Both the position numbers and the translations under genes were made by a program. This document shows, piece by piece, positions 13,709 to 48,611 of a stretch of 64,000 nucleotides of DNA (positions are counted from its first letter, which is position 1; every line of letters begins with the position of its first letter). The DNA is from an uncultured Pseudomonadota bacterium (GTDB lineage Bacteria > Pseudomonadota > Gammaproteobacteria > Steroidobacterales > Steroidobacteraceae), in NCBI GenBank assembly GCA_903884105.1, contig CAISDJ010000042.1, positions 62,001-126,000 of the forward strand, in the 5' to 3' direction. The notes under the pieces were generated by a model that was given only the letters and a program-made list of their open reading frames with translations, ran no database searches and was not told the origin of the DNA.

Positions 13709-15817
13709 ATGACAACGACAGCCAGCTACCGCCTGCGATGGGCTATCTTGATTGGCGGGCTCGCCGCTTCAGGTGCACTGTATGGGCAGAACGCGCCGGT
13801 GTACTCGAGCGACCAGGCAGAGCGCGGCAAAGCCACTTACACCGGTGCCGGCGGCTGCGTCGCCTGTCATGGCCCGGACCTGTCTGGCGGCCAGTTCGGC
13901 CCGTCCCTGAAGGGTGTCAGTTTCCGCAACCGCTGGTCCGGGATGACGATGGCCGAGCTGTTCGCGCAGCTGAAGCAGATGCCGCCGGGGGGCGGAGGGA
14001 GCCTTGGCGATGCCGTCTATGCAGATCTCGCTGCGCTGATCCTGTCGGCGAATGGTTTTTCAGCCGGCAGTGCGTTTCCAACGGATCCGACAGCGCTCAA
14101 GGCAATGGCCATGCCGGGCGAGCGGCGCGCAGAGACAGGCTTTGTCCGCCTGAAACCCGGCACGAAGCTCCCTTTCTATCCCACGGCGGCGAATCCGCTC
14201 GAGAAGATCACGCCGGTCACGGATGCGCTGCTCACGACTGCGCCCGAAGGCGAGTGGCTCCAGTGGCGTCGTACCTGGGACGCGCATGCTTATAGCCCGT
14301 TGAAGCAGGTGACGAAGTCCAATGCAAAGAACCTGCAGCTCGCGTGGTCTTTCGCATTGCCCGCCGGTCCGAATACGACGACACCGCTGGTCCATGACGG
14401 CGTGATGTTCCTGTTTGCACAGGACAACGTGCTGGCGCTCGATGCCCGGAGCGGCGAGCTGCTCTGGCGTTACGTCCACACGCTGCCGCAGGGCGATCGT
14501 TCCAGTGCCAAGCGTGCACTGGCCCTGTACGGCAACAAAGTCTACGCACCGACCTCCGATGGACGCGTCGTCGCGCTCGATGTGCAGACCGGCAAGGTCG
14601 TGTGGAACGAGCCGGTCGACAATGACGTCAAGGCCTCGACCACCGGCGGACTCCTCGCGGCGAAGGGCAAAGTCATGCTCGGCACGACCGGCTTCGCGCC
14701 GGGCGGCGGGTACATCCAGGCGTTCGATGCGGAGACCGGCAAGAAGCTGTGGCGCTTCTACGGCATCCCGCGCCCGGGTGAGAAGGGCAGCGAGACGTGG
14801 AACGGCACTGAGCTTGGCAAGATGTCCGGCGGCTCCGTGTGGACGCCCGGCTACTACGATCCGGTGAACGACCTCGTGTACTTCAGCCCGACACCCACGT
14901 ACGACACGAAGCCGTTGCGGGATCCTTCCGGCGTACCGGGCACAACCAACGATGCGCTGTTCACCGACACGACCATTGCGCTGAATCCGGATACGGGCAA
15001 GCTGGTCTGGTACTACCAGCACATGCAGAACGACCAGTGGGATCTCGACTGGGGCTTCGAGCGCCAGATCGTGAACCTCAAGGTCAACGGTGTGGATCGT
15101 CGCGCGGTCGTCACGGGCGGCAAGCTCGGCATCTTCGATGCGATGGATGCGAAGACGGGCGAGTACCTGTCGTCCACCGACATGGGCTGGCAGACGCTGG
15201 TGACGTCCATCGATCCGAAGACGGGCCACAAGAACTACGACCCCAATATGGTCCCTGGTGATGGCGTGGCGAAGTTCCTCTGCCCGCATGCAGGCGGTGG
15301 CCGCAGCTGGATGCCGACGGCCATGAACGGTGCCGCGAAGGTCATCTACATCCCTGCCGTCGAGACGTGCATGAACATGGCGCCGGTCGCCGCGGGCGAA
15401 CGAGGTGCGCTCACCACAGGCGTCAACTGGGAGTTGCAGCCGCATCCGCAGTCCGATGGCAATTTCGGCCGTTTGCAGGCCATCAACGTGGAGACCCACA
15501 AGACGCTGTGGACGCAGCGCGAGCGCGCGCCTACGACGACAGGCGTGCTGGCCACGGCAGGCGGTGTGTTGTTCTCAGGCTCGCTCGACCGCTTCTTCAA
15601 AGCGTATGACCAGTCGACCGGCAAGATGCTCTGGAAGAGCCGACTCGGCGACGTTCCCAGCGCGGCCCCGATCACCTATTCGGTGGGTGGCAAGCAGTAC
15701 GTCGCGATGGTCGTCGGCTACGGTGCCCCGCAGTCCGCATCGTTCGGTGCACTGGTGCCGGAGATCGTGACGCCGGTGATTCCGAGTTCGTCGGTGTCGG
15801 TGTTCGCGCTGCCGTAG
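13709..15817 (+). CDS. cytochrome c / PQQ-binding beta-propeller dehydrogenase (copy 2)
   Basis: 702 aa from the ATG at 13709, chosen because it begins the signal peptide (ending LYGQNAPVY); the open frame upstream crosses the hairpin region and is not protein-like. Haem site CVACH at about residues 50-54, then the same propeller as copy 1. Long stretches are identical between the two, for example the region around QHMQNDQWDLDWGF and DAMDAKTGEYLSSTD, so this is a fairly recent tandem duplication. Differences concentrate in the cytochrome linker and in loops such as LRDPSGVPGTTNDA against LRDKVKTKGVTNDA, which could mean a shifted substrate range. Periplasmic; electrons probably pass from PQQ to the fused haem. 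Confidence 0.92.
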   Translation: MTTTASYRLRWAILIGGLAASGALYGQNAPVYSSDQAERGKATYTGAGGCVACHGPDLSGGQFGPSLKGVSFRNRWSGMTMAELFAQLKQMPPGGGGSLGDAVYADLAALILSANGFSAGSAFPTDPTALKAMAMPGERRAETGFVRLKPGTKLPFYPTAANPLEKITPVTDALLTTAPEGEWLQWRRTWDAHAYSPLKQVTKSNAKNLQLAWSFALPAGPNTTTPLVHDGVMFLFAQDNVLALDARSGELLWRYVHTLPQGDRSSAKRALALYGNKVYAPTSDGRVVALDVQTGKVVWNEPVDNDVKASTTGGLLAAKGKVMLGTTGFAPGGGYIQAFDAETGKKLWRFYGIPRPGEKGSETWNGTELGKMSGGSVWTPGYYDPVNDLVYFSPTPTYDTKPLRDPSGVPGTTNDALFTDTTIALNPDTGKLVWYYQHMQNDQWDLDWGFERQIVNLKVNGVDRRAVVTGGKLGIFDAMDAKTGEYLSSTDMGWQTLVTSIDPKTGHKNYDPNMVPGDGVAKFLCPHAGGGRSWMPTAMNGAAKVIYIPAVETCMNMAPVAAGERGALTTGVNWELQPHPQSDGNFGRLQAINVETHKTLWTQRERAPTTTGVLATAGGVLFSGSLDRFFKAYDQSTGKMLWKSRLGDVPSAAPITYSVGGKQYVAMVVGYGAPQSASFGALVPEIVTPVIPSSSVSVFALP

Positions 15818-34938: not shown

Positions 34939-35598
34939 TCAGGAACGTGGCCCTCCGGCTTTCCGTTTCGGGCCCGACCTTTTCGAGGGCTTGCCCCGCT
35001 TCTTGATGACTCCCCGTCCGCGGAGTGCCCGATCCCCGCTTGCCGGGGCGGTCTTCGGACTGGATGCCACCAGTTCCCTCAGGGCAACTCGCGCATCCAG
35101 AAGCAGCTCCCCAAGCTGCTCCAGCTTCTGCTGGCCGAGCGCAGCCTCGAAAGAGGCGAAACGCTGGGTTGTCTTCGGCAGGAGCTTGACGATCAGCCTG
35201 CGCCCCGTGGCCGTCAGTGCAACCATTCCCCATCTTTGCCCCTGCGGTACCTTACGGGCTACCCAGCCGATTTCCGTCATGCGGTCCAGGATGCCGGTCA
35301 TGCTGGGTGCGGCAATCCTGGCATGCCGGGCGAGCTTGCTGGTCTCCAGATCGCCCATGCGAAAGAGGATGCTCAGAACACGGTATTGCTGGTCAGTAAC
35401 ACCGAACTCGCGGAACACCGAGCGGAAGGCTCCCAGGAATCCCTCGCGCACATCGAGGAGAAGATTGGGCAGCACGTTGTTCTCACCCTCTTCGTCCTTT
35501 CCGGCGCGAACGATCGACGGATCGACATTCGCGGATGTGGATGCGGGTTCGAGTGAGGCACGGATTCCGCTCACTCCGGCCTTCCGGATACTCTTCAT
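34939..35598 (-). CDS. MarR-family transcriptional regulator (copy 1)
   Basis: 219 aa from the ATG at 35598 (MKSIRKAG); the longer open frame up to 35886 crosses the divergent promoter region. Winged helix core: VLPNLLLDVREGFLGAFRSVF, DQQYRVLSILFRMGDLETSKLAR, SMTGILDRMTEIGWVARK and LTATGRRLIVKLLP, as in HpaR-like members. The last 40 residues are a Lys/Arg-rich tail, unusual for MarR proteins. Closely related to the regulator at 37382-37990. Divergent from the DUF6152 module at 36018, which it probably represses; MarR proteins commonly respond to aromatic ligands. Confidence 0.92.
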   Translation of the reverse strand: MKSIRKAGVSGIRASLEPASTSANVDPSIVRAGKDEEGENNVLPNLLLDVREGFLGAFRSVFREFGVTDQQYRVLSILFRMGDLETSKLARHARIAAPSMTGILDRMTEIGWVARKVPQGQRWGMVALTATGRRLIVKLLPKTTQRFASFEAALGQQKLEQLGELLLDARVALRELVASSPKTAPASGDRALRGRGVIKKRGKPSKRSGPKRKAGGPRS

Positions 35599-36017
35599 AT
35601 GGCCGATTGCTCCGCTGCGTGTCGGGTTGAGGTGCGGCAGTCTAGCATCACCGTCCACGGCTTCGCCGTCCCAGCCCCAACCGCCGCCGGCATTGACAGG
35701 TGACGTTGCCGATGGTGGCCACGCCCTTCCTCCCGCGAGCGCGATGTGCGGGCAGGCTGGTTGTCCACCAACGCTCATTGGCCCAGTCCGGGGCACCGTC
35801 CTTTGCGGCGGAAGCCCTTGTTGTCGACTCACTCGGCAGTGGCCATGCAGGGTGCCCAGTCCCCGGAGATCGACTCCACCATCCATTGCGATTGCCCGTG
35901 ATTGTGTTTATGTTATTGTCTTCATGTATGAACGCAGCGCACTTAATATATGCATTGCGGGCAGGAAAGGTAACGCGGTCAAACTGATTTTGGTGCGCAG
36001 CACCAGAGGGGGCGCTG
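35599..36017. other. 419-bp divergent intergenic region
   Basis: Holds the control region for the MarR gene (minus) and the DUF6152 module (plus). Apart from the promoter-like elements at 35921-35949 it is without a supported gene; the open frames across it lack start signals and family resemblance. AT content rises between about 35895 and 35960. Confidence 0.6.
35921..35949 (+). promoter_or_regulatory. promoter of DUF6152 module 2 with half-site
   Basis: TTCATG (35921-35926) and TAATAT (35944-35949) are 17 bp apart. ACTTAAT (35941-35947), resembling the ACTTAAC half-site of the palindrome at 38196, overlaps the -10 box. The -35 box is weak. Confidence 0.4.
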
Positions 36018-36476
36018 ATGATGAAAAGGATTGCCTTCAGGGCAGTGTTCGGGGTTGTCGCGCTATCGGCCATGGTAGTGGGGGCGCCATCAATCGCACA
36101 CCATTCCGCCTCCATGTTCGATATGCAGAAACGCGTCGAGGTCAAAGGGACGGTCAAGGACTTTCGCTGGACGAACCCACATAGCTGGCTGGTGCTGACG
36201 GCGACGGACGAGGCGAACAAGGGAGCCGAGTACAACATCGAGATGAATGGTCCGGGCTACCTCGTGCGCAACGGCTGGAAGCGTGAAAGCATGAAACCGG
36301 GCGATGTGGTCACTGTCACCATCAATCCACTCCGCGACGGCACCGCGGGTGGCAATCTGGTCAAGGTGACTACGGCTGACGGAAAGGAGCTTTCCGCACA
36401 GGTGGGAGGAGGGGCGCCGCCCGGAACTGCCGGAGCACCCGCCGCACCCCAGGCTTCCCCGGGAGCGCAGCCATGA
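36018..36476 (+). CDS. DUF6152 periplasmic protein (module 2)
   Basis: 152 aa; ATG at 36018 (or the next codon) behind GAGGGGG. Signal peptide ends GAPSIA, giving mature HHSASMFDMQ. The domain has VEVKGTVKDFRWTNPHSWL, MNGPGYLVRNGWKRESMKPG and INPLRDGTAGGNLVKVT, and ends in a Gly/Ala/Pro-rich tail of about 25 residues. Nearly the same as the module 3 protein through the core. Overlaps the next gene by 4 bp (ATGA). Regulated probably by the divergent MarR gene. Function unknown; N-terminal His-His after processing is a possible metal ligand. Confidence 0.88.
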   Translation: MMKRIAFRAVFGVVALSAMVVGAPSIAHHSASMFDMQKRVEVKGTVKDFRWTNPHSWLVLTATDEANKGAEYNIEMNGPGYLVRNGWKRESMKPGDVVTVTINPLRDGTAGGNLVKVTTADGKELSAQVGGGAPPGTAGAPAAPQASPGAQP

Positions 36477-37273
36477 GAGGCGCTCGCACGTTGAGCACGG
36501 TCGCTTTGGCGGCCTGTGTCGTCACGACCTTGGGGATGTCGCAAGCGGTTGCCCAGACCGCGCAGCAGGGCAAGAACCTGAGCGCCCTGGCGCCCGAGAA
36601 TCTGCAGAAGCCCCGGCCAAAGCCCCCCTTTGACATGACGGGCACGTGGGGCTTTTCTCCGGCTGCGAATGCGAAGACAGGCAGGCATTTGTTCCTGCCA
36701 TTGCCGGAACTCACACCCGCCGCCCAGGCCGCATCTGCAAAGCACGCGGAGTACAGGGCGAAAGGTCTCGAGTATCGCGATGACTCAGGCGCCTGCTGGC
36801 CGCTCGGCGTACCCCGGATGATGACCCGCTTCTGGCCCATCCAGATCATCCAGTTGCCGACCATGGTGCAGCTGACGACCATGTTCAACAACGACGTGCG
36901 CTGGATTTACACCGATGGGCGCGGTCATCCGCCGGCGGATGAAATCGTCTTCACCTACAACGGCCATTCCATCGGCCGCTGGGAAGGGGACTCCCTGATC
37001 GTCGATACCGTCGGCTTGACCGGCGACCATAGCTGGATACAGGAAGGCATTCCGGCAAGCGACAAACTGCACGTGGTCGAGCGCTTCCGCATGATCGAAG
37101 GCGGCAAGGCGCTTGAGGTCCAGTTCACGATGACCGATCCGGACAACTGGAAGGGCGAGTGGGTCAGCACCAAGCGCTACGATCGTGACGATCGTGCGGA
37201 CATCGAGGAGCACGGCTGCATCTTCGAGCAGGAAAGCAAGCTGCCCAGCTTCAAGTACAACATACGTGAGTAA
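36473..37273 (+). CDS. secreted partner-family protein (module 2)
   Basis: 266 aa, coupled to the DUF6152 gene by ATGA. Signal peptide ends QAVAQ. The mature protein starts TAQQGKNLSALAPENL, then PFDMTGTWGFSPA, a conserved GACWPLGVPRMMTRFWPI, VRWIYTDGRGHPPADE, GHSIGRWEGDSLIVDTVG, DKLHVVERFRMIEGG, TMTDPDNWKGEWVSTKRY and EEHGCIFEQ. Two conserved cysteines may form a disulfide. It is strikingly similar to 38820-39626 and more distant from 40047-40913, 45716-46456 and 23355-24443. Predicted beta-rich periplasmic protein; I find no enzyme motif and assign no function. Confidence 0.88.
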   Translation: MRGARTLSTVALAACVVTTLGMSQAVAQTAQQGKNLSALAPENLQKPRPKPPFDMTGTWGFSPAANAKTGRHLFLPLPELTPAAQAASAKHAEYRAKGLEYRDDSGACWPLGVPRMMTRFWPIQIIQLPTMVQLTTMFNNDVRWIYTDGRGHPPADEIVFTYNGHSIGRWEGDSLIVDTVGLTGDHSWIQEGIPASDKLHVVERFRMIEGGKALEVQFTMTDPDNWKGEWVSTKRYDRDDRADIEEHGCIFEQESKLPSFKYNIRE

Positions 37274-37300
37274 GCAGCCAAGTCGTCCATGAGTCGGATT

Positions 37301-37336
37301 GGCAGGGTGATGCAAGAGCCTTTGCATCACCCTGCC
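37301..37336. terminator. bidirectional terminator between convergent genes
   Basis: GGCAGGGTGATGCAA (37301-37315) and TTGCATCACCCTGCC (37322-37336) form a perfect 15-bp stem with a 6-base loop, 27 bp after the module 2 stop and before the end of the second MarR gene. Confidence 0.75.
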
Positions 37337-37381
37337 GGTTCCGGATCCTTCCTCTTGCGCACGTTCGCCGGCCCGACGGGT

Positions 37382-37990
37382 TTATGCGCGAAGCTTCCTG
37401 CCGGCTTTCCTGCGACGCGACGCAGTACTCCCGGCTCTCGAGGGTAACTTCGGGCCGGGCAACCTCAGATTCCTGGCCGTATCTCGCGCCCTCACGAGCA
37501 GCTCAACAAGTACAGCGAGTTGTGCCGTGCCCATCGCTGTGGAAAATGCAGCGTTCCGGCTGTCGATTTGGGGTTGCAGCTGCTGGATCAGGTTGCGCCC
37601 CGCAGCGGTCAGCGAGATGGCCCCCCACCGCTGGCCTTTCAATGGCTTCCGGGTAACCCAGCCGATTGCAGCCATCCGGTTCAGGATGCCGGTCATGCTG
37701 GGGCCGATGATCCTGCAACGCCGGGCGAGCTTGCTGATCTCCAGATCGCCAGAGAGATGCAGGATGCTGAGCACACGGAATTGCTGATCCGTGGTGCCGA
37801 ACTGGCGCAAGACCGGACGGAAGCTGGTAAGGAACGCCTCCCGGACGTCCAGCAACAAGTTGGGGAGCACGTCGTCGAACCGGTCATCCCCTGGCGCCGG
37901 GTGCACTTCATGTGATCCGGACATATGCCCAGGCTCCGCCGCGGGTACAAGCCCCGCCTTGTCCCCTTTCTGCATCCGCATACGCTTCAT
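37382..37990 (-). CDS. MarR-family transcriptional regulator (copy 2)
   Basis: 202 aa. Paralogue of the 34939-35598 regulator: DVLPNLLLDVREAFLTSFRPVL, DQQFRVLSILHLSGDLEISKLAR, GPSMTGILNRMAAIGWVTRK and LTAAGRNLIQQLQP, again with a basic tail (SRRRKAGRKLR). Divergent from DUF6152 module 3, whose promoter holds a perfect palindrome (38196-38213) of the kind MarR dimers bind. The two regulator/module arrangements look like one duplicated unit. Start codon at 37990 or the Met two residues later. Confidence 0.92.
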   Translation of the reverse strand: MKRMRMQKGDKAGLVPAAEPGHMSGSHEVHPAPGDDRFDDVLPNLLLDVREAFLTSFRPVLRQFGTTDQQFRVLSILHLSGDLEISKLARRCRIIGPSMTGILNRMAAIGWVTRKPLKGQRWGAISLTAAGRNLIQQLQPQIDSRNAAFSTAMGTAQLAVLVELLVRARDTARNLRLPGPKLPSRAGSTASRRRKAGRKLRA

Positions 37991-38403
37991 TTCCAGCCTG
38001 CTCCCCGCGCTCTATCTGGCACCGCCGCAGAAGCTTATCACTGCAAGGAGCGAAGCCAGTGCGGCCCGCCAGCGGGCCCCGCTCGTCGCGAGCGCCCGCG
38101 GAATGGTGCGCTGCATCCGACCCCGGTCACCTCGTGATCACATCAAATGGGCCATAAATAGGCCATATAGGATGTTAAGTATGCAAGGACGTATTGACTT
38201 AACTTGTTAAGTCGGAGTAGATTCTCGTCACGACTTGCTGATGCTGATTTCCGTCGGGTTCCGACACTCCTCTGGTGCAACCGCATTGAGGGCATCCACT
38301 TCCTCAATGGTCCAGGCAGCGTCGAGGCCGTCGTTGCACGCCCACGGGAATGCGGTGCCACGGTTCGTTTCGATTTCCGAGGACTCCATTTAGGAACACC
38401 GCC
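37991..38403. other. 413-bp divergent intergenic region
   Basis: Control region between MarR copy 2 and module 3. It contains the promoter and operator at 38194-38223, a further GTTAAGT half-site at 38174-38180, and two near-repeats of GGCCATA (about 38150-38168). No gene supported. Confidence 0.6.
38194..38223 (+). promoter_or_regulatory. promoter with perfect MarR-type operator palindrome
   Basis: TTGACT (38194-38199) and TAGATT (38218-38223) are 18 bp apart. GACTTAAC-TT-GTTAAGTC (38196-38213) is a perfect 18-bp inverted repeat that overlaps the -35 box and fills the spacer, the classic place for repressor binding. The divergent MarR gene is the likely source of the repressor. Confidence 0.65.
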
Positions 38404-38823
38404 ATGAATCACGCTCCCGCTCGACAGGTCTGGTACGCAACGCTGGCGTCGCTGACAGTCAGTGCATCTGCATGGGCACACCATTCATTCTCGGCGTTCG
38501 ACATGGCCAAGGAAGTCGATGTCCAGGGTGTCGTCAAGGAATTCCGCTGGACGAACCCGCACAGCTTCCTCGTGTTGAACGGCAAGGATGCTGCCGGCAA
38601 GCCGGCGGAAGTCCGTGTCGAGATGAACGGCCCGGGCTATCTCGTCCGCAACGGCTGGAAGCGGGAGAGCCTGAAGCCCGGTGATGCCGTGACCGTCACG
38701 GTGCATCCGCTGCGGGACGGCACGCTGGGTGGCGACCTGGTCAAGGTTGTCTTTGCCGACGGCCGCACGCTCTCGGCAGCGATCACGCTGAATACTGCCC
38801 CGGCAGCGGGCGAGCAGCGATGA
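38404..38823 (+). CDS. DUF6152 periplasmic protein (module 3)
   Basis: 139 aa from the ATG at 38404; the frame is open upstream but in the leader. Signal peptide ends SASAWA, so the mature form begins HHSFSAFDMA. Core: VDVQGVVKEFRWTNPHSFLV, MNGPGYLVRNGWKRESLKPG, VHPLRDGTLGGDLVKVVFADG. Very close to the module 2 protein. Overlaps the partner gene by 4 bp. A leader of about 175 bases lies between the predicted promoter and the start. Confidence 0.88.
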   Translation: MNHAPARQVWYATLASLTVSASAWAHHSFSAFDMAKEVDVQGVVKEFRWTNPHSFLVLNGKDAAGKPAEVRVEMNGPGYLVRNGWKRESLKPGDAVTVTVHPLRDGTLGGDLVKVVFADGRTLSAAITLNTAPAAGEQR

Positions 38824-39626
38824 TCGGTCGCCATCCGGAAAGGCGGGCTGGTGGCGCGCTCCTGCTGTTCTCTTGCGCGCTTGTGACGCTGGTTGCGCCG
38901 CTCGCTTTCGCGCAGACGTCGCAAGAAGGCAAGAACCTGGGTGCGTTGACGCCGGAAAACCTGGCCAAGGCTCGTCCCAAGGCACCGTTTGACCTCACCG
39001 GGACCTGGAACATGCTGGTCGACCCCAAGACAGGGATGCACCAGTTCATGCCTCTCCCGGAACTCACGCCTGCGGCACAGGCGGCACTGAAGAAGCACGA
39101 CGAGTATTCCGCAAAGGGACTCGAGTACCGCGACGATCCGGGCGCGTGCTGGCCTCTCGGCTTGCCGCGCATGATGACTCGTTTCTGGCCCATCCAGATC
39201 ATCCAGCTGCCGACGATGGTGCAGTTGACGACGATGTTCAACAACAGCGTTCGCTGGATCTACACGGATGGCCGGCCGCATCCGTCTGACGACGAGCTTG
39301 TGTACACCTACAACGGCCATTCCATCGGGCGCTGGGAAGGCGACACCCTGGTTGTGGATACGGTCGGCATGACGGGCGAGCGTCACTGGATACAGGAAGG
39401 GGTCCCGGCGGGCGAAAAGCTGCACGTAGTCGAGCGCTATCGCATGGTCGACGGCGGCAAGGCCTTTGAAGTGCAGTTCACGATGACGGACCCGGATAAC
39501 TGGAAGGGCGAGTGGGTCAACACCAAGCGCTTCAGGCGAGAGGAGCGCACCGACATCGAAGAGCACGGCTGCATTTACGAGCAGGTCAGGGACCTGCCGA
39601 GCTTCAAGTCGAACATCCGAGAGTGA
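38820..39626 (+). CDS. secreted partner-family protein (module 3)
   Basis: 268 aa, ATGA-coupled to its DUF6152 gene. Signal peptide ends PLAFAQ; the mature protein starts TSQEGKNLGALTPENLAKA. It shares nearly the whole sequence with the module 2 partner: PFDLTGTWNMLVDPKTG, GACWPLGLPRMMTRFWPI, VRWIYTDGRPHPSDDE, GHSIGRWEGDTLVVDTVG, EKLHVVERYRMVDGG, TMTDPDNWKGEWVNTKRF and EEHGCIYEQ. The pair of pairs (module 2 and 3) probably arose by duplication of a MarR-DUF6152-partner unit. No domain name or function recognised. Confidence 0.88.
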   Translation: MIGRHPERRAGGALLLFSCALVTLVAPLAFAQTSQEGKNLGALTPENLAKARPKAPFDLTGTWNMLVDPKTGMHQFMPLPELTPAAQAALKKHDEYSAKGLEYRDDPGACWPLGLPRMMTRFWPIQIIQLPTMVQLTTMFNNSVRWIYTDGRPHPSDDELVYTYNGHSIGRWEGDTLVVDTVGMTGERHWIQEGVPAGEKLHVVERYRMVDGGKAFEVQFTMTDPDNWKGEWVNTKRFRREERTDIEEHGCIYEQVRDLPSFKSNIRE

Positions 39627-39666
39627 TGGCGCACGTCGCCACGCAGATTGCATGAGGATTATTGCC

Positions 39667-40050
39667 ATGAACGTACGTATGCTGGTCTGGTCAATTGCCG
39701 GGTTGGGTGCATTGCTGGTGGCCGCCGCCCCCGTGTTTGCGCACCATTCCTTTGCGATGTTCGACATGCAGAAGGAAGTGACTGCCAAAGGTGTCGTGAA
39801 GGAGTTCCAGTGGACCAATCCGCACTCGTGGGTCCAGATCGAAATCAAGAACGACAAGGGTGCCACGGAGGAATGGGCGCTCGAGGCATTGAGTCCCAAC
39901 GTGCTGAGCCGCATGGGCTGGAAGCGCAACTCGCTGAAGGCCGGTGAAACCATCACGGTGGTCTACCATCCCGCCCGCGACGGGTCCCATGGCGGGCATC
40001 TGGTCAACGTCACGCTGGCAGACGGCACGACGATCGGTGGCGTGCAATGA
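39667..40050 (+). CDS. DUF6152 periplasmic protein (module 4)
   Basis: 127 aa from the ATG at 39667, preferred over the in-frame ATG at 39652 because GAGGAT lies about 8 bp before it. Signal peptide ends APVFA; mature start HHSFAMFDMQ. Core: VTAKGVVKEFQWTNPHSWVQ, ALEALSPNVLSRMGWKRNSLK and YHPARDGSHGGHLVNVTLADG. It diverges from modules 2 and 3 in the middle (SPNVLSRMGW in place of GPGYLVRNGW) and is closer to module 5. 40 bp behind module 3, so modules 3 and 4 are likely one transcript. ATGA overlap with the partner gene. Confidence 0.86.
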   Translation: MNVRMLVWSIAGLGALLVAAAPVFAHHSFAMFDMQKEVTAKGVVKEFQWTNPHSWVQIEIKNDKGATEEWALEALSPNVLSRMGWKRNSLKAGETITVVYHPARDGSHGGHLVNVTLADGTTIGGVQ

Positions 40051-40913
40051 GTCGGTCGTTGCGCTTGTCCGTGACAGCGGCGCTGGCCGCTGCCGGAATG
40101 GTGTCCGGTTTGATGGGTGTGTCGGTGCCCGTCGCGTCTGCAGCGCAGCCGGCTGCCAAGGCTAAGCAGGAGGTTCCGCAGCCCCGGCGCCTGTCCGACG
40201 GCAAGCCCAACTGGACCGGCTTCTGGTCACCCGTCGGCGGGTTGCTCGAGCAGTATCGCGGCCCCGGCGGCACTGCAGTCGCTGCGGGCGACAGCGTCAG
40301 GTCCGACGGCGGGCCAGCCTCGCAGAAGCCTCCCTTCTCCGGTGCTTCGCCGCTGAAGTCCCCGTACAAGGAGCAGCACGAGGCCTATCTCGCGAAGGCC
40401 GCCAAGGGCAGCGTCGCGGATCCGGTCGCGCTCTGCTATCCACCTGGCATGCCGCGCATGATGGTGATGGTCTACGGCATGGAGCTGCTGCAGACGCCAG
40501 GCCAGATCGCCATGACCAGCGAGTGGCAGGCCGCATCGCGCCGCATCTGGTTGAACGACAAGTCGCATCCGGATCCGGAGGAGCTGAACCCGACCTACGC
40601 CGGCCATTCGATCGGCAAGTGGGAAGGTGACACGCTGGTGATCGATACGGTAGGCATCCGGACGGACGTGCCGGTCGACTTCCTCGGCCTGCCCCATAGC
40701 GACAAGCTGCACGTGGTCGAGAGGATCACGGAAAGGTCGCCGGGCATCCTCGAGAGCGAGATCACGATCGACGATCCTGAAGCGTTCACCGCCCCGTGGA
40801 AGACGACGATGACCTACCGGTATCGACCGGACCTCCGCCTGCAGGAATACACCTGCCTGGAGAACAATCGCAACGTCGGCGCAAACGGCGAGCAGGATTT
40901 CGGGCGCAAGTAA
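40047..40913 (+). CDS. secreted partner-family protein (module 4)
   Basis: 288 aa, ATGA-coupled. Signal peptide ends PVASA. Mature part: RRLSDGKPNWTGFWSPVGGL, a variable linker, then ALCYPPGMPRMMVMVYGME, RRIWLNDKSHPDPEE, GHSIGKWEGDTLVIDTVGI, DKLHVVERITERSPG, ITIDDPEAFTAPW and EYTCLENNRN. The ENNRN ending is shared with the module 5 partner. Two conserved cysteines (CYPPG and YTC) could pair. The protein belongs to the same family as the partners in the other modules but to a different subgroup from modules 2 and 3. Function unknown. Confidence 0.87.
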   Translation: MSRSLRLSVTAALAAAGMVSGLMGVSVPVASAAQPAAKAKQEVPQPRRLSDGKPNWTGFWSPVGGLLEQYRGPGGTAVAAGDSVRSDGGPASQKPPFSGASPLKSPYKEQHEAYLAKAAKGSVADPVALCYPPGMPRMMVMVYGMELLQTPGQIAMTSEWQAASRRIWLNDKSHPDPEELNPTYAGHSIGKWEGDTLVIDTVGIRTDVPVDFLGLPHSDKLHVVERITERSPGILESEITIDDPEAFTAPWKTTMTYRYRPDLRLQEYTCLENNRNVGANGEQDFGRK

Positions 40914-41146
40914 GCCAAGCGCTGGTTGGCACTGAAGGGGGGACAGCGGTGGGCTTCTGCAGCCGTCCCGCACGCGTCGGTGGAGCAGGTGCGGGCGGTC
41001 GTTCCCAAAGTCTAGTTCTTCGGGCCGATCTTCCGCCCAGTCGAAAGCAGTGACGCCGATCTCGATACTTTTGCCGCGTACCTGACCCGGAACAGCGGCG
41101 AGTGGTTTGTAGTCCGCGCCGGGTTCCCTTACTAGCAGGAGTTTCC

Positions 41147-41593
41147 ATGAGCAGTCTGATCAATCGTCTTGTCGCGACCAACGAGAGTATTGCCCCGCTG
41201 GCGCTTCGGGTCCCGGTCGGCATCGTCTTCGCCGCACACGGCGCCCAGAAGCTGTTCGGCTGGTTCGGCGGCTACGGCCTTGCCGGTACTGGTGGGTACA
41301 TGGAATCGATTGGTCTGTCCCCGGGAACGGTTATGGCTGCGCTGGCAGGCGGGGCAGAGTTCTTCGGTGGCTTGGCTTTGGTGGTCGGCTTGCTGGTGCG
41401 CCCCGCGTCCGCGGTGCTTGCCTTTACGATGCTGGTCGCGATTTTCAGTGCCCATATCAGCAAGGGTCTGTTCATTGCCAATGGCGGCTACGAATACGCA
41501 CTCGCCCTGCTGGCCGTGACCGTCTCATTGCTCATCAGTGGCGCGGGTCGCCTCTCGGTGGACGGCGCCATGGGAAGCACTGCGAAAGGCTGA
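41147..41593 (+). CDS. DoxX-family membrane protein
   Basis: 148 aa from the ATG at 41147 behind AGGAG. Four membrane helices. DoxX signature: LALRVPVGIVFAAHGAQKLFGWF near the N-terminus, GGAEFFGGLALVVGLLVRPAS in the second and third helices, and a final helix LLAVTVSLLISGAGRLSVDG. Bacterial DoxX proteins are small inner-membrane proteins associated with redox or thiol stress functions in some genera; a specific reaction is not established. It is followed by a strong terminator, so it is probably a single-gene transcript or the end of the module 3-4 transcript (234-bp gap). Confidence 0.92.
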   Translation: MSSLINRLVATNESIAPLALRVPVGIVFAAHGAQKLFGWFGGYGLAGTGGYMESIGLSPGTVMAALAGGAEFFGGLALVVGLLVRPASAVLAFTMLVAIFSAHISKGLFIANGGYEYALALLAVTVSLLISGAGRLSVDGAMGSTAKG

Positions 41594-41613
41594 TGCAAGA
41601 GTGATCCCTCTGC

Positions 41614-41649
41614 GGGTGATGCGTCGAGGAGACCATCACCCGATTTTTT
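41614..41649 (+). terminator. rho-independent terminator of doxX
   Basis: GGGTGATG (41614-41621) pairs with CATCACCC (41634-41641) around a 12-base loop and is followed by GATTTTTT. The best canonical terminator in the window. Confidence 0.85.
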
Positions 41650-41996
41650 CTGTCTCCCCGGCGTAACTGCGGCCGGGATGGGGCAGAAGTTACCGTACGT
41701 TGCCGTGGGCGTAGATCCCTACTCGCGGCGGGTGCGAGGTGGGTCCGGTGATCCGCTGTTGGCGCTACGCTGATACTCAATGCCGGCACTCAATGGCTGT
41801 TCAAGTCAGCACCCATCGAGTTCGAGCAACAGGCAAATCGCATCAATCCGCTGCCAGGCTAAGCCAGAGCGGATCGGCTCAGGGCGGGGGGAATACGGTT
41901 GTCGCGGGCACTTGCTTCGGTGGCGGATCAGTGTCTCGCTGAAGCTGCCTGACGCGTGGATCGCGATGTGATCCGCGCAGGGTTCTTGCAGGAGAG

Positions 41997-42030
41997 GCAG
42001 ATTGCGCCGGCTTACACCGGCGCAATCTGC
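41997..42030. terminator. bidirectional hairpin after the TonB receptor gene
   Basis: GCAGATTGCGCCGG (41997-42010) and CCGGCGCAATCTGC (42017-42030) form a perfect 14-bp stem with a 6-base loop, 11 bp beyond the minus-strand receptor stop. No T run on the minus strand. Confidence 0.65.
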
Positions 42031-42041
42031 CCAATTGCGGC

Positions 42042-44822
42042 TTAGAAGTTGAACCGCACGCCGGCCCGGTAGAGGCGACCGATCAGATCATAGTTGACGA
42101 AGCCGCTGGCGAAGCCGCCGGCACCCTCCGGCGGATCCTTGTCCATGACGTTGTTGATCACGCCATAGATCTGGACCCGGCGGTCGCCGTCACGCACGAG
42201 GTCGTACTGCGCCGACAGGTTCAGGTACACAGCGGAAGGCACCGTGTTGTCGCTGATCGTGCCTGGCAGGGCCGGGTTGTACGCCGGGTTGTCCGGGCCG
42301 ATCAGCGTGGTGTCGCGGATCGCATCACCGACGTAGCGCAACTGCGCATTGCCGGTGAACTGGCCCACGATGTAGTTCACGTCGAACGTCCAGAGCCATT
42401 CCGGCACCGTCTGCTTGACCCTGTCCACTGTGCCGACGGAGTCGGTCGTCGACAGTTCGTTGACCAACGCACCGAGCGCACGGACCTGGAACTGGCCGGG
42501 CACGAGCAGGTCGCTGGGCAGGGAGTAGACAGCTTCGAAGTCCCATCCGGTCGTCTCGATCGCATTGAAGTTGAGCAACTTCAGCGTGACCGCGGTGACC
42601 GACCCGTTCGGGGCGCGGGTAATGTCCCCGCAAAGCTCGAGGGCGCCCGCGGCGCAACGGTCGACCGTCTGCTGCGCGGTCAGGCGCGTGATGGCCCCGT
42701 TGATCTTGATGTCGTGGTAGTCAGCCGAGAGGCTGAGCCGCGGCACGAACGTCGGCTGGAACACGATGCCGGCGGTGAAGGTATCTGCCTCTTCCGGTAA
42801 CAGGTTGGGGTTGCCGATGCTGTTGGTGTTCTGCTGGGCGCCGTTGACGAAGTCTCGTCCCTGGACCCCCGCGGAGTAGAGTTCCTGCAGGTTTGGCGCG
42901 CGGATGTCGCGCGACTTCGTGGCCCGGAACCGCACCGACTGGACCGGCTCCCAGCTGGCGCCTGCCTTCCACGTCGTGACGCCGCCGGAAGTCGAATAGT
43001 CGGTGTAACGAACAGCACCGTTCACGTCGAGGCTCTGGGCGAAGGCCTTGTCCCTCAGGATCGGGACCGCGACTTCACCATACAGCTCCTGGGTATGGAA
43101 ATCGCCCGCGATGGGCTGGAAGTTATTGAGGTCATAACGCCTCAGGCGCGAATTGCTGTCGACCTTGCTGGCGACTTCCTCCATGCGGTATTCCGCGCCG
43201 GCAGCGACGGCCACGGGGCCCGCCGGCAAAGTGAACAGATCGCCGTTCACGTTCACTGCGCCTGCCTGCTGTCTGTAAGTCACGTCGTTGATGCCGACTC
43301 CGCGGACGTAGTCGACGGCCGCCTGCGATGGCGCGTTGCGGCCGAAGATGTTGAACGGCACGCAACCCGGATCCGCCCCGACTCCGGTCAGGTTCCGGCA
43401 GACGATCTGGCCGCCGACGAGAACTGCGTCCGTCGCTGCCGCGAAGTTCGTATTGATGGTCGACTGGTTCCGTTGCTTGAAGTGGTTCTGGCCGTACTGA
43501 TAGTACGCATCCCACCTCCAGGATCCACCCAGTTCGCCCTTGAAGCCGCCCGCGACGCGCTCGGTCTGCTGGCCGGTGAGGGTCGTGTAGAAGTTGTAGT
43601 TGTCGTCCAGCGCGATGCGGCCGACATTGATGGTGGCGAGGTTCAGGTTCACCATCTGCGTGCGGATCGCGGTAGGCAGGAAAGCGTTGTCCTGCCGGAC
43701 GACGATGGTGCCCTGGTCGCGTCGGCTGGCCGAGAAGCCCTCGTAGGCCGACACGGCCCGGGATGCCTCGATGAAGCCCTCGAGGGAATCGGTGAAGTCC
43801 CACTTAACGCGCACGAGTGCCGAGTTGCGCTCGATGGGGTTCACCAGATTGGAGCCGTCGATGACGCGGAGGTCGGCATTACTGTTGTTGGCCCCGCCGC
43901 CGATCATGTTCGTGCCGGCGACCAACGTGCCGGGCGTGAAGATGCCGGTGTTCTGGCCGCCCAGGAACGTGATGTTGTCCAGCGGGCCGCCGACGATCAC
44001 GCCGCCCGAAGAAGCCGTGTCGCCATTGCGGAAGTCCTCGGAGAAGACGCGCTGCGGCACGCCGGCCGGACGCGGTGCGGCGCCGTAGTTGAAGAGCGTG
44101 CCGGTCCACGACCTCTTCATCCAGTCGCGAGTGCGGAAGCCGTCCGCGATGCCGTCGTTCTTGACGTAGTCGAAGCCGGCGATCACGTGGCCGCGTCCGC
44201 CTGCGAAGTCGGTGCCGCCCGCGAGATTGATCGTGCTTTCAATGTAGTCGCTGTGGCCCGTCTGTGCGTAGGCGACATGGCTCTGGATCCCCTGCAGGTT
44301 GTCCTTCAGGAGGATGTTTACCACGCCTGCCACGGCGTCGGAGCCCCAGGCGGCCGATGCGCCGCCGGTGACCACCTCGGTCCGCTCGACCAGGCCGGTC
44401 GGGATCATGTTGAGGTCGACCAGGCCGGAGACGGTGCTCGGCACATGACGACGGCCGTCGATCAGTACGAGGGTGCGCGCGACGCCTCCGTTCAAGCCGC
44501 GCAAATCCAGGGAGCTGCCGCCCGAAGAGCCGCCGCCGCGCTGAGCGGTGGCAGGGCCGTTGGAGGCGCGGAACACCGGTGTTTCGTTGATGGCGTCGGT
44601 GATGTTCGTGAAGCCGCGGGCTTCAAGCTGCAGCTCGCTGATCACCGTCGTCGGCGTCGGGGCGTTGAAGCCTTCGCGCGAAACCCGGGAGGCCGTGACG
44701 ACGACGTTGTCGAGCTGAGTGTCGCCCGGGGCAGCGGCGGGCGCTTGCGCTGCAGCTGCAGAAGCCATGAGCTCGGCGGCGATGCCAAGCATGAGGATGC
44801 GATTTCGACTGGACTTCATCAT
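42042..44822 (-). CDS. TonB-dependent receptor, large plug-rich type
   Basis: 926 aa from the ATG at 44822, which follows AGGGGAG; the frame upstream is non-coding. Signal peptide ends SAAAA; TonB-box-like LDNVVVTASRV. The plug has TLVLIDGRRHVPS, LNMIPTGLVERTEVVTGGASA and SDAVAGVVNILLK, the layout of the IroN/oar-like receptors common in Xanthomonas and Sphingomonas relatives. The barrel ends YRAGVRFNF with terminal Phe. Such proteins import complex carbohydrates, peptides or hydrophobic nutrients. It is divergent from module 5, and its promoter carries the same TTAAGT element as the module promoters, so receptor and modules may be one regulon. Confidence 0.95.
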   Translation of the reverse strand: MMKSSRNRILMLGIAAELMASAAAAQAPAAAPGDTQLDNVVVTASRVSREGFNAPTPTTVISELQLEARGFTNITDAINETPVFRASNGPATAQRGGGSSGGSSLDLRGLNGGVARTLVLIDGRRHVPSTVSGLVDLNMIPTGLVERTEVVTGGASAAWGSDAVAGVVNILLKDNLQGIQSHVAYAQTGHSDYIESTINLAGGTDFAGGRGHVIAGFDYVKNDGIADGFRTRDWMKRSWTGTLFNYGAAPRPAGVPQRVFSEDFRNGDTASSGGVIVGGPLDNITFLGGQNTGIFTPGTLVAGTNMIGGGANNSNADLRVIDGSNLVNPIERNSALVRVKWDFTDSLEGFIEASRAVSAYEGFSASRRDQGTIVVRQDNAFLPTAIRTQMVNLNLATINVGRIALDDNYNFYTTLTGQQTERVAGGFKGELGGSWRWDAYYQYGQNHFKQRNQSTINTNFAAATDAVLVGGQIVCRNLTGVGADPGCVPFNIFGRNAPSQAAVDYVRGVGINDVTYRQQAGAVNVNGDLFTLPAGPVAVAAGAEYRMEEVASKVDSNSRLRRYDLNNFQPIAGDFHTQELYGEVAVPILRDKAFAQSLDVNGAVRYTDYSTSGGVTTWKAGASWEPVQSVRFRATKSRDIRAPNLQELYSAGVQGRDFVNGAQQNTNSIGNPNLLPEEADTFTAGIVFQPTFVPRLSLSADYHDIKINGAITRLTAQQTVDRCAAGALELCGDITRAPNGSVTAVTLKLLNFNAIETTGWDFEAVYSLPSDLLVPGQFQVRALGALVNELSTTDSVGTVDRVKQTVPEWLWTFDVNYIVGQFTGNAQLRYVGDAIRDTTLIGPDNPAYNPALPGTISDNTVPSAVYLNLSAQYDLVRDGDRRVQIYGVINNVMDKDPPEGAGGFASGFVNYDLIGRLYRAGVRFNF

Positions 44823-45031
44823 TGTCTCCCCTGTGGACTGGATGTCCTGACTCGTCATTGTTAGTGCGCGATGCTGGGGCAGGAAACCCAAGTGGACACC
44901 GGCGTTCCGCAGTCAACCAGAAGAAAAGCAGCCTTTCCCCCGGCAGCTCAAATGCTCATTCTTTCCTTTATCGACCGGCTGCGACGGCCGGTCATCGATA
45001 ACGCAAGGAACTGTTCGCTGTAGTATGAGTG

Positions 45032-45060
45032 AACTTACTTAACATGTAAATTGACGTCAA
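45032..45060 (-). promoter_or_regulatory. promoter of TonB receptor with TTAAGT element
   Basis: On the minus strand TTGACG (plus 45055-45060), a 17-bp spacer ending in ATGTTAAG, and TAAGTT (plus 45032-45037). GTTAAGTAAGTT overlaps the -10 box and matches CTAAGTACGTT in the opposed promoter. Confidence 0.55.
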
Positions 45061-45127
45061 GCGCTCCAGTTGCGGCAACGCGACATCCCGCCTTCGATCA
45101 GCTGATGCACTGCAGCGCGAACCCCGC

Positions 45128-45156
45128 TTGACGGCAGTTAAGATACTAAGTACGTT
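45128..45156 (+). promoter_or_regulatory. promoter of DUF6152 module 5 with TTAAG elements
   Basis: TTGACG (45128-45133) and TACGTT (45151-45156) are 17 bp apart; the spacer carries GTTAAG (45137-45142) and ACTAAG, the latter running into the -10 box. Same architecture as the receptor promoter at 45032 and the module 3 promoter at 38194. Confidence 0.55.
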
Positions 45157-45317: not shown

Positions 45318-45719
45318 ATGGCACTTAGAGGGTTTCCCGGTATCCGCTCGGCAGCGCTGCTCCTCGCGCTGTTGACGTCGTTCCCGATCGCCGCGCATCA
45401 CTCCTTCGCGATCTTCGATCGCGATGTCCAGATCACGTTGACTGGAACCGTCAAGGCTTTCCAGTGGACCAACCCGCATGTGTTCATCCAGCTCATGGTG
45501 AAGAACGCCGAGGGAGTGGACGAGGAATGGAGCATCGAGGGTGCGAGTCCGAACATGCTGTTCCGCAGCGGCTGGACGAACCAGTCCTTCAAGCCAGGCG
45601 ACAAGGTCACGATCGTCGCCAATCCCCTCAGGGACGGGAAGCACGGCGCGAATTTCGTGTTTGCCCAGCTGCCCGACGGCAAGACGCTGGGGCAGCTCAA
45701 CTCGCGGGCGCCCGGATGA
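45318..45719 (+). CDS. DUF6152 periplasmic protein (module 5)
   Basis: 133 aa from the ATG at 45318 behind GAGAGG; upstream open frame is in the leader. Signal peptide ends FPIAA, giving mature HHSFAIFDRD. Core: ITLTGTVKAFQWTNPHVFIQ, SIEGASPNMLFRSGWTNQSFK and ANPLRDGKHGANFVFAQLPDG. Together with module 4 it forms the SPNML/SPNVL subgroup. ATGA overlap with the partner gene. No regulator gene is adjacent; the shared promoter element suggests control by one of the MarR proteins 8-10 kb away (inference). Confidence 0.88.
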   Translation: MALRGFPGIRSAALLLALLTSFPIAAHHSFAIFDRDVQITLTGTVKAFQWTNPHVFIQLMVKNAEGVDEEWSIEGASPNMLFRSGWTNQSFKPGDKVTIVANPLRDGKHGANFVFAQLPDGKTLGQLNSRAPG

Positions 45720-46456
45720 TGAAGCGGCGGGCGCTGTTGATCCTGCTGGCAAGCGTCCTTGCCTGCCAGACCCCGGCAAATGCCGCCGAGCCCGCTGCGC
45801 TCCCACGCAGCGGCATGAATGGCATCTGGTCAGGGGAGCAGGGTGTTCTCTGGGACACCTCGGTGAAGCCCGGCCAGAAGCCCCGGGCCCCGTTTACGCC
45901 CGAGTACGCCGCGATCTACCAGGAAGCGCTCGATGCGTCCGCCCGTGGCCAACCCAAGGCGGATCCCCCGGCCGGCTGCCTGCCTCCCGGCGTGCCCCGC
46001 ATCATGGCATCGCCTTTTCCCTTCGAGATCGTGCAGACGCCCGAGATCACCTACATCCTCTATGAGTACATGAGCCAGATCCGGCGCGTCTACATGACAG
46101 GTGCGGCGCCGGCGGCGATGGGTTTGCCCACGTTCAATGGCCGCTCTACGGGAAAATGGGAAGGTGCGACGCTGGTCATCGAGACGACCGACATGAACCC
46201 GCTTTCGGTCCTCGACACGACGCATCTTCCCACCAGTGATGCCTTGAAGGTGACCGAGCGGCTGCGCCTGCTGGCGCCGGACAGGCTCGAAGCGACCATC
46301 ACGCTGACGGATCCGAAGGCCTACACGGAACCCTGGACGGTGGTCAGGACCTACAAGCGCAAGCAGGGCGAGCAGATCCTCGAGTATGTTTGCGAAGAGA
46401 ACAATCGCAACCCGGTGCAAGAGGACGGCTCGACGGGATTCATCGGCGCGCAGTAG
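45716..46456 (+). CDS. secreted partner-family protein (module 5)
   Basis: 246 aa from the ATG at 45716, ATGA-coupled. Signal peptide ends PANAA. It has GMNGIWSGEQGVL, GCLPPGVPRIMASPFPFEI, RRVYMTGAAPAAMG, GRSTGKWEGATLVIETTDM, DALKVTERLRLLAPDR, ITLTDPKAYTEPW and EYVCEENNRNP. The histidine-proline pair after the (V/I)(W/Y)xxx strand of other members is replaced by APAA here, so that part is not universally conserved. Clearly homologous to the module 4 partner over the C-terminal half. Function unknown. A 253-bp gap with no recognisable gene follows before the PQQ enzyme. Confidence 0.87.
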   Translation: MMKRRALLILLASVLACQTPANAAEPAALPRSGMNGIWSGEQGVLWDTSVKPGQKPRAPFTPEYAAIYQEALDASARGQPKADPPAGCLPPGVPRIMASPFPFEIVQTPEITYILYEYMSQIRRVYMTGAAPAAMGLPTFNGRSTGKWEGATLVIETTDMNPLSVLDTTHLPTSDALKVTERLRLLAPDRLEATITLTDPKAYTEPWTVVRTYKRKQGEQILEYVCEENNRNPVQEDGSTGFIGAQ

Positions 46457-46709
46457 CAACACGGGTTTCCTGCCCTCGGCCGACTAAAACATCAGCTCGG
46501 GATTCGGCCGGTTCGACTTCCTGCAGGATTTTCGTGTGCCAGGAAGACAAACGGAGCGTCGGCGTGAACGGCGAGCCGGTATTCAAGTGGCGCGATGCCA
46601 CGGCGGCAATCACTGACCGGGATAGCCAGCCTGCACCAGGTGTGATCTTGTGTGCGACCGTCGCATCGCCTGGCGCATTGCCGCGTCCACACTGTGCAGG
46701 GGAATATCG

Positions 46710-48611
46710 ATGCGCGTGAGCATTCAACACAGCGAGCCGGGAACGATAGAAGGCCCGCGGACCCGCCAGCCTGCTTTGCTGCTCTTCGCAAGCGCACTGG
46801 TCTTCGGGCTGGCCGGGTCGACCGCAGCACTCGCTGCCGAAGCGGGCGGCGAAGCGGTGTATGCGCAATACTGTGCATCGTGCCACGAGCAGGTAAGCCC
46901 GCGCATACCCACACGCGAGGCCCTCACCAAGATGTCTCCCGCGCGCATCCTGCGCACGCTCGATTTCGGATTGATGATGAGCATTGCCTATCCGATAAAG
47001 CGCAACGAGCGCGAAGCCGTTGCCCGGTTTCTCGGCAAGGGAAAGGATGAAGCGGCGTTGCCTGCGAGCGCCTACTGCAAGGCAGACCGGCCCATCATGT
47101 CCGCCGCATCGCTTGGGAACTGGACCGGCTGGAGCCCGTCGCAGGACAACACGCGGTTCCAGACTACCGAGCGCGCCGGCCTTGCAGCAGCCGATATCGG
47201 GAAGCTGGAACTCAAGTGGGCGTATGGTTTTGCAGGTGACGTGATCGCATTCGCGGCGCCGACGCTCTTCAACGGCACGCTGTTTGTCGGCAGCGCCGGT
47301 GGTGCCGTGCAGGCCCTCGACGCGAGCACGGGTTGCGTCCACTGGATCTATCAGGCGAACGGACCGGTGCGCACCGCGATGACGGTTGCAGAAGAAGGCG
47401 CACGCAAGACGCTGCTGTTCAGCGACCAGAACGGCTGGGTGTACGCGCTCGATGCGCGCACGGGGAAATCGCGCTGGAAGAAGAAGGTCGAGGAACATGA
47501 GGCCACCCGGCTGACAGGTTCGCTCGCAGTTCACGATGGCGTGGCGTTCGTGCCCGCCGCGTCGTGGGAGGAGACCCGCGCGATCGATCCTGCGTACAAG
47601 TGCTGCACGTTCCGCGGCAGCGTGACCGCCGTGCGTGTTCGCGACGGGGCCAGGGTCTGGAAGACATATCTGGTAGACCAGCCGAAGAAGATCGGTACGA
47701 CAGCGGTTTCCACCGAGACCTATGGGCCTTCGGGAGCGGGCGTCTGGTCGACACCCACCATTGATGCCGTGCGCGGCCTGCTGTACGTCACGACAGGCGA
47801 CAACTACTCCCATCCCGCGACGGCGACCAGCGACGCTGTGATCGCACTCAACCTCAAGTCGGGTGCAATCGCATGGTCGCAGCAAACCACGCCGAACGAC
47901 GTCTACAACTCGTCCTGCGGCAGCCGCGGGGCGAATTGTCCCGAGGACAACGGACCTGATTTCGACTTCGGTGCGTCGGCAATGCTTGTGAAGACGGCGG
48001 ACGGTCGAGACGTGCTAGTCGCCGGTCAGAAGTCGGGAATGGTCTACGCCCTGGATCCCGCGAACAACGGCAAGCTCTTGTGGCAGACGCGCGTCGGCAA
48101 GGGCGGTGTCAACGGTGGAGTCCAGTGGGGCATGGCGAGCGACGGCCGCACTGTCTACGCCTCGGTTTCCGATGTCGTGCGCCCCGCCGGCACGATGGGT
48201 GCGGCGCCCATCGGCAACGCCTTGCTTGATCCGGAGAAGGGCGGCGGACTCACTGCGCTGAACATCGCGGACGGGACCAAGGTCTGGTTCGCGCCTGGCA
48301 TTCCCTGTGCTCCTCCGCGGCCCGGTTGCAGTCCCGCACAACCCGCCGCAGTCACGGTGCTGCCCGGTGCCGTGTTTTCCGGTTCGATGGACGGCCACTT
48401 CCGTGCGTTCTCGACTGAGGATGGGAAGCTGCTCTGGGACTTCGACACGCTGAAGAATTTCACGACCGTGAATGGCGTGCCGGCATCAGGCGGATCGCTG
48501 GATGGAGCGGGTCCGCTCGTTGCCGGCGGCATGGTGTTCGTGAATTCCGGCTATCCCCGCTTCGGCGGCATGCCGGGAAATGTGCTGCTGGCATTCGGGG
48601 TCGCAAAGTGA
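46710..48611 (+). CDS. cytochrome c / PQQ-type dehydrogenase, polyvinyl-alcohol-dehydrogenase-like
   Basis: 633 aa from the ATG at 46710. Signal peptide ends ALAAE. An N-terminal cytochrome c domain with one haem site (CASCH, about residues 55-59), then WTGWSPSQDNTRFQT and a propeller with blades such as AVQALDASTGCVHWIY, GWVYALDARTGKSRWKKK, AVIALNLKSGAIAWSQ and HFRAFSTEDGKLLWDF. It is not closely related to the tandem pair at 11-16 kb; the WSPSQxNTRFQ segment and blade order recall the polyvinyl alcohol dehydrogenase (cytochrome) group. Probably a periplasmic alcohol oxidase donating to its own haem. Substrate inference is weak. Confidence 0.9.
   Translation: MRVSIQHSEPGTIEGPRTRQPALLLFASALVFGLAGSTAALAAEAGGEAVYAQYCASCHEQVSPRIPTREALTKMSPARILRTLDFGLMMSIAYPIKRNEREAVARFLGKGKDEAALPASAYCKADRPIMSAASLGNWTGWSPSQDNTRFQTTERAGLAAADIGKLELKWAYGFAGDVIAFAAPTLFNGTLFVGSAGGAVQALDASTGCVHWIYQANGPVRTAMTVAEEGARKTLLFSDQNGWVYALDARTGKSRWKKKVEEHEATRLTGSLAVHDGVAFVPAASWEETRAIDPAYKCCTFRGSVTAVRVRDGARVWKTYLVDQPKKIGTTAVSTETYGPSGAGVWSTPTIDAVRGLLYVTTGDNYSHPATATSDAVIALNLKSGAIAWSQQTTPNDVYNSSCGSRGANCPEDNGPDFDFGASAMLVKTADGRDVLVAGQKSGMVYALDPANNGKLLWQTRVGKGGVNGGVQWGMASDGRTVYASVSDVVRPAGTMGAAPIGNALLDPEKGGGLTALNIADGTKVWFAPGIPCAPPRPGCSPAQPAAVTVLPGAVFSGSMDGHFRAFSTEDGKLLWDFDTLKNFTTVNGVPASGGSLDGAGPLVAGGMVFVNSGYPRFGGMPGNVLLAFGVAK

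Follow-up and report, generated by a model that had tools for sequence, protein, structure and literature searches.

Predicted HpaR-type MarR operators at the promoters of DUF6152 modules, TonB-dependent receptors and a p-cresol-methylhydroxylase-like flavocytochrome in a freshwater bacterium

The promoters of three DUF6152 modules and of a gene for a TonB-dependent receptor, all lying in the 64,000-nucleotide stretch of DNA from a freshwater bacterium that was analysed here (the window), carry sites built like the operator of HpaR, a MarR-family regulator of aromatic catabolism. These sites are most likely HpaR-type MarR operators through which two regulators encoded in the same locus, MarR1 and MarR2, jointly repress the uptake system, the modules and an oxidase encoded elsewhere in the genome until a phenolic ligand is present. 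Pfam searches recovered the gene set around both MarR genes as the earlier note had described it, with the two paralogous MarR genes divergent from modules 2 and 3 (Table 1). Each module consists of a DUF6152 gene (gene A) and a second gene (gene B); gene B of module 2 has no match in Pfam or NCBIfam. No operator-like site is found upstream of gene A of module 4, and this module is probably co-transcribed with module 3.

Table 1. Genes, promoter and predicted operators of the locus, with the distant flavocytochrome gene pair. Positions are those of the window unless another locus is named.
Feature	Position	Strand	Support or remark
MarR1, HpaR-like MarR regulator, 219 aa, divergent from module 2	34939..35598	-	Pfam MarR 1.4e-10
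Module 2 predicted operator CACTTAATATATGCATTG	35940..35957		Matrix score 15.3, 4th in window
Module 2 gene A, DUF6152	36018..36476	+	PF19649 4.4e-34
Module 2 gene B, 266 aa, probably exported	36473..37273	+	Kin of B genes in modules 3, 4, 5
MarR2, HpaR-like MarR regulator, 202 aa, divergent from module 3	37382..37990	-	TIGR02337 103 bits
Module 3 upstream predicted operator CATATAGGATGTTAAGTA	38164..38181		Matrix score 15.0
Module 3 promoter TTGACT-18-TAGATT	38194..38223	+	Promoter scan
Module 3 main predicted operator GACTTAAC-TT-GTTAAGTC, within promoter	38196..38213		Matrix score 17.1
Module 3 gene A, DUF6152	38404..38823	+	PF19649 2.8e-33
Module 3 gene B	38820..39626	+	73% identity to module 2 gene B
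Module 4 gene A, DUF6152	39667..40050	+	PF19649 5.9e-38
Module 4 gene B	40047..40913	+	Related to B genes of modules 2, 3, 5
DoxX-family membrane protein, 3' of module 4	41147..41593	+	PF07681 4.9e-24
TonB-dependent receptor, 926 aa	42042..44822	-	Plug and beta-barrel domains
TonB receptor predicted operator TACTTAACATGTAAATTG, overlaps receptor promoter	45036..45053		Matrix score 25.4, top of window
Module 5 predicted operator CAGTTAAGATACTAAGTA, directly 3' of TTGACG	45135..45152		Matrix score 18.5
Module 5 gene A, DUF6152	45318..45719	+	PF19649 2.6e-34
Module 5 gene B	45716..46456	+	Related to B genes of modules 2, 3, 4
PQQ-type beta-propeller protein with cytochrome c domain, 3' of module 5	46650..48611	+	PF13360, PF13442
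VAO-type flavoprotein gene, then small cytochrome c gene	L078:13770-15410, 15407-15781 (G000:C105)		

The earlier note had drawn these promoters together through a common TTAAGT element. Half-sites of this kind are present at modules 2 and 3 and at the TonB receptor, but module 5 has no exact TTAAGT or ACTTAA and offers merely GTTAAG and CTAAGT (GTTAAG-AT-ACTAAGT at 45137-45151). The hexamer alone is weak evidence, because its seven copies in the window (3.1 expected) are also reached in 2 of 100 shuffles. The sites themselves are present where the note had placed them, with the corrections given here, and the full element stands far above chance; the informative unit in them is not the TTAAGT hexamer but a 12-bp TTAA-N4-TTAA-like core with a flanking ...AAGTA. 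At module 3 the core, TTAACTTGTTAA, is a perfect TTAA-N4-TTAA, as it is at the flavocytochrome genes of both species considered below, all other sites being imperfect. The main module 3 site lies inside the promoter, beside the -35 hexamer, in agreement with the overlap reported previously; of the "perfect 18-bp palindrome" claimed for it, the two 8-bp arms are perfect, but the central TT is not palindromic. A second site, TAGGATGTTAAGTA at 38168-38181, is found upstream of the main one. The TonB receptor gene (minus strand) is preceded by ACTTAAC at 45037, and module 2 by ACTTAATAT at 35941, a single good half-site that makes this module the weakest case of the set.

HpaR of Yersinia pseudotuberculosis and of E. 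coli W binds TTAA-N4-TTAA (PMC7180172). Among 29 HpaR-like loci of other genera or families, a TTAA inverted repeat with spacing 4 was found at six (0.4 expected), as against 0 to 2 for the other spacings from 0 to 8, and it was absent from all 18 loci of other MarR genes. The surroundings of the six loci were read as largely hpa-type clusters, with what we take to be HpaE-like and HpaF-like proteins. A symmetric matrix of 18 columns was derived from nine TTAA-N4-TTAA sites beside these HpaR-like genes, none of them from this genus, and was run over the window and over another 244 kb taken from elsewhere in the genome; a mild circularity attaches to it, as the TTAA half-site was chosen after inspection of the window, though it is also the published one. 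The five best sites in the window, starting at 45036, 45135, 38196, 35940 and 38164, all score at least 15 and all fall in the three intergenic regions of modules 2, 3 and 5/TonB. The sixth-best scores 6.2, and no site of at least 15 was found elsewhere in the window or in the 244 kb. None of 500 symmetric column permutations of the matrix gave five matches in these regions (one gave three), and shuffled windows contained a mean of 0.02 sites at or above 15, with a top score of 17.7 in 200. The independent matrix thus singles out exactly the four promoters that the earlier note had assigned to a small MarR regulon. Of the upstream regions of the 36 DUF6152 genes in the genome, those of modules 2, 3 and 5, which adjoin the MarR genes and the TonB receptor, alone reach this score (3/36), the next best standing at 10.0; the element therefore marks a subset of these genes and not DUF6152 at large.

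Comparison with a second species of the genus (G001; the genome containing the window is G000) points in the same direction, since the sites are kept while the surrounding sequence has diverged. G001 has MarR1, MarR2, modules 2, 3 and 4 and the DoxX gene, and its two regulator genes, like those of G000, are found a short way from the predicted operators of modules 2 and 3. In its module 3 promoter (TTGACTTATCATGTTAAGTGAGAATAGATT), 25 of 30 bases are kept, versus 45% of the reference bases across the region; TTAGGATGTTAA is found at the position matching the upstream site, and in either genome a distance of 32 bp, about three helical turns, separates the two cores. The ACTTAATAT half-site of module 2 is identical in G001, and the inverted repeat is kept between the two genomes at the module 3, TonB and flavocytochrome promoters. 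In G001, module 5 is inverted and sits between module 2 and MarR1, and no strong site precedes it; the TonB gene of G001 is located away from the MarR locus, so that the module 5/TonB arrangement is not conserved. Between module 5 and module 2 of that genome (L097:12290-12480, G001:C79), a fragment resembling the end of a TonB receptor can be made out by eye, perhaps the remnant of a receptor gene that once adjoined module 5.

Promoter-like pairs overlap all of the predicted sites, and at the TonB genes and modules 3 and 5 a TTGAC stands ahead of the element. This might be expected of a core promoter feature (a -35/-10 pair or a preference in the spacer) or of promoter DNA that is just rich in A+T. 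Such an origin is very improbable. The distance to the hexamers varies, the element lying beside the -35 at module 3 and at the spacer end in module 5 and the TonB genes; a second, conserved copy lies 32 bp upstream at module 3; the 33 other DUF6152 upstream regions are without the element; and column-permuted matrices of equal composition miss these promoters.

The predicted regulon appears wider than the earlier note had proposed, taking in a further TonB receptor as well as an enzyme resembling p-cresol methylhydroxylase. A paralog of the receptor, 91% identical, is encoded about 102 kb off on the same contig (G000:C42:2069-4846), and an 87% relative is present at G001:C67. All three genes carry the element (TTTACATGTTAAGTA, TTAGGATGTTAAGTA and TTACGATGTTAAGTA), in each case shortly after TTGAC, and TTA(G/C)GATGTTAAGTA is common to the paralog and the G001 gene. 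The latter is divergent from a relative of the PQQ-type gene found 3' of module 5 in the window. Elements are also found upstream of a flavoprotein gene in both genomes (TTAACATCTTAA at G000:C105:66445, TTAACATGTTAA at G001:C174:2110). This is the same gene in the two species, the proteins being 95% identical, and its product matches p-cresol methylhydroxylase 9h40 at 1.9e-171; 15 of the 16 bases of the element are kept between G000 and G001, while the left flank is poorly conserved. With the cytochrome c gene that follows it, the flavoprotein gene at C105 forms a pair like that of the p-cresol methylhydroxylase/vanillyl-alcohol oxidase family (PDB 9h40, 1dii), and a predicted target of this kind points to a phenolic compound. 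In the literature searched, no paper was found that places p-cresol-methylhydroxylase-type genes under an HpaR-type regulator. At both loci (G000:C105, L078:13284-15781; G001:C174, L153), genes for two DUF6644 proteins and a DUF6152 gene precede the flavoprotein/cytochrome c pair. At G001:C3:17938 (L098:3936), a palindrome, TTATCATGATAA (score 15.7), was seen. It is flanked by genes for an aldehyde dehydrogenase and a PQQ-type dehydrogenase, with a further HpaR-like MarR gene and a phenol-hydroxylase-reductase-like gene about 2 kb away.

Since module 3 is a paralog of module 2 (their B genes share 73% identity) and the two TonB receptors of G000 are so closely related, the likeness of their promoters could in principle be that of upstream DNA duplicated along with the genes and not selected as operators. 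This is scarcely credible, the upstream regions being hardly alike outside the element: between the TonB receptor gene and its paralog, BLAST similarity is significant only in about 90 bp around the start codon, and the flavocytochrome promoter, unrelated to the others, has the element in both genomes even though its left flank has diverged.

Pattern scans covered the 3.73-Mb genome. Exact copies of ACTTAACNNGTTAAGT occur at module 3 only, and allowing up to two mismatches adds the TonB site alone; at three mismatches, 13 matches compare with 52 for the reversed control. Exact matches to TTANNATGTTAA, a pattern drawn from the TonB-type elements with the flavocytochrome sites of both genomes unused in its making, number four in G001 and two in G000, and each lies at a promoter of the proposed regulon, whereas at one mismatch in G000 the pattern and its reversed control give 12 matches each. 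With CTTAACATNNTAA at one mismatch, six of seven matches in G000 fall at regulon promoters (control, 3). As the loose patterns do not rise above their reversed controls, counts alone were dropped as evidence; the signal is where the sites lie, not how many there are. Some candidates were discarded. A TTAAGT upstream of a DUF6152 gene (C105:57633) apparently lies in the coding end of the preceding gene; a site before another module, TGTAGATATTAAGTC at C41:19166, scored 15.4 with a first matrix but below 15 with the independent one, and no convincing ortholog of it was found in G001; a site at C71:48336 was taken as a chance match, the adjoining gene having no visible link. An identical perfect palindrome, TTACGATCGTAA, followed by GTG was observed near the starts of two contigs (G000:C46:443 and C130:484), its copies possibly belonging to a repeat element.

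The nature of the two regulators fits the proposal of a small MarR regulon, both falling in the HpaR-like group, for which TTAA-N4-TTAA is the published operator. Both have the MarR winged-helix domain, above the Pfam MarR cut-off, and the best family model for both is HpaR TIGR02337 (MarR1, 95.0 bits; MarR2, 103.0 bits). As these scores and those of the G001 orthologs (91.5 and 103.8) stay below the TIGR02337 cut-off of 121.2 bits, the proteins are described as HpaR-like and not filed as HpaR. The solved chain nearest to MarR2 is 5aip (2.2e-21), with 2fbi and HpaR 7el2 also near; we take 5aip (5aiq) to be NadR of Neisseria, the structure table itself labelling 5aip as MarR family. In the alignment, the wing motif is GQRW in all four MarR1 and MarR2 sequences of the two species and DQRR or DQRQ in the other HpaR-like proteins, a replacement that may alter DNA contacts.

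Among the latter is a third HpaR-like MarR of the genome, encoded on contig C6 beside genes that we read as hpaG-like. This protein, 41% identical to MarR2 and endowed with the usual DQRR wing, could be the global binder of sites that are real HpaR-type operators, MarR1 and MarR2 then acting only locally or on other targets; the resemblance of the sites to those of hpa clusters would agree with such an assignment. It is nonetheless improbable, as the protein's own hpaG/hpaR intergenic region has no strong site by the independent matrix and as, in both species, the genes near the sites of modules 2 and 3 are those of MarR1 and MarR2. Their neighbours are the DUF6152 modules and not an hpa cluster, the hpaG-linked gene lying separately on C6. 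Judged by position, MarR1 and MarR2 are the likeliest binders of the element.

Computation shows where the sites lie, that they are conserved and confined to these promoters, and that both regulators are HpaR-like; from this we infer that the regulators bind, in which direction they act, what kind of ligand releases them and which of them acts where. MarR1 and MarR2 would sit, as dimers, on the 12-bp cores overlapping the promoters of the TonB receptor gene and of modules 2, 3 (with 4) and 5. The second TonB receptor and the flavocytochrome would be controlled in the same way, and at module 3 two sites on one helical face would be occupied. Bound dimers would hinder RNA polymerase and so block transcription. 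Binding would weaken in the presence of a phenolic ligand, be it 4-hydroxyphenylacetate, p-cresol or a related compound, whereupon outer-membrane uptake, the exported DUF6152/B proteins and the oxidase would be made together. With an HpaR-type switch at four promoters and HpaR-like genes beside two of them, the genes are probably induced together by a phenolic compound. Repression and the type of ligand are suggested by analogy with HpaR and NadR, and the modules may process the compound in the periplasm, as the earlier note had supposed.

The proposed system shares with HpaR of E. coli W and Yersinia (homoprotocatechuate/4-hydroxyphenylacetate; TIGR02337; PMC7180172) a MarR-family regulator, the TTAA-N4-TTAA operator, a link to aromatic catabolism and two operator sites at a controlled promoter (here module 3). 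It differs in that MarR1 and MarR2 score below the family cut-off, have the GQRW wing and are encoded beside DUF6152 modules instead of hpa genes, and in its predicted targets: TonB receptors, DUF6152 modules and the p-cresol-methylhydroxylase-like enzyme. NadR/FarR of Neisseria meningitidis, the closest solved relative of MarR2, is likewise a MarR repressor with several operators, and 4-hydroxyphenylacetate weakens its DNA binding (PMC4841544); unlike MarR1 and MarR2, it controls an adhesin gene, through operators that span 22 bp. In Sphingobium sp. SHPJ-2, uptake and catabolism are coupled by a similar logic: when the repressor PheR is lost, aromatic-degradation genes and TonB-dependent receptors both rise in expression. 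PheR, however, belongs to the IclR family, has the motif GCAACG and is concerned with phenanthrene (PMC13273656).

The 3.7-Mb genome contains 36 genes of DUF6152 (PF19649), a family without known function of which no mention was found in the literature searched; the 14 control genomes contain no such gene, so that the expansion is large. AlphaFold gives a small barrel for a DUF6152 protein, whose OB-fold-like matches are weak (best E 3.7e-03), and a poor model for gene B (mean pLDDT 58.8), so that neither model supports a functional claim. The assignment of three DUF6152 genes and a TonB receptor to a predicted HpaR-type switch shared with a p-cresol-methylhydroxylase-like enzyme provides a testable hint at function. 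It also names candidate inducers and suggests the class of substrate that the hitherto anonymous TonB receptor is likely to take up, and the HpaR-type operator proves recognisable outside hpa clusters. It seems conceivable, as a tentative extension, that a duplicated HpaR-like pair with an altered wing carried the HpaR operator over from 4-hydroxyphenylacetate catabolism to a new regulon, one that links the uptake of a phenolic compound through the outer membrane with the DUF6152/B modules. If this were true, the DUF6152/B proteins would take part in the handling of phenolics, for example as a carrier or by exchanging electrons with the PQQ and p-cresol-methylhydroxylase-like enzymes.
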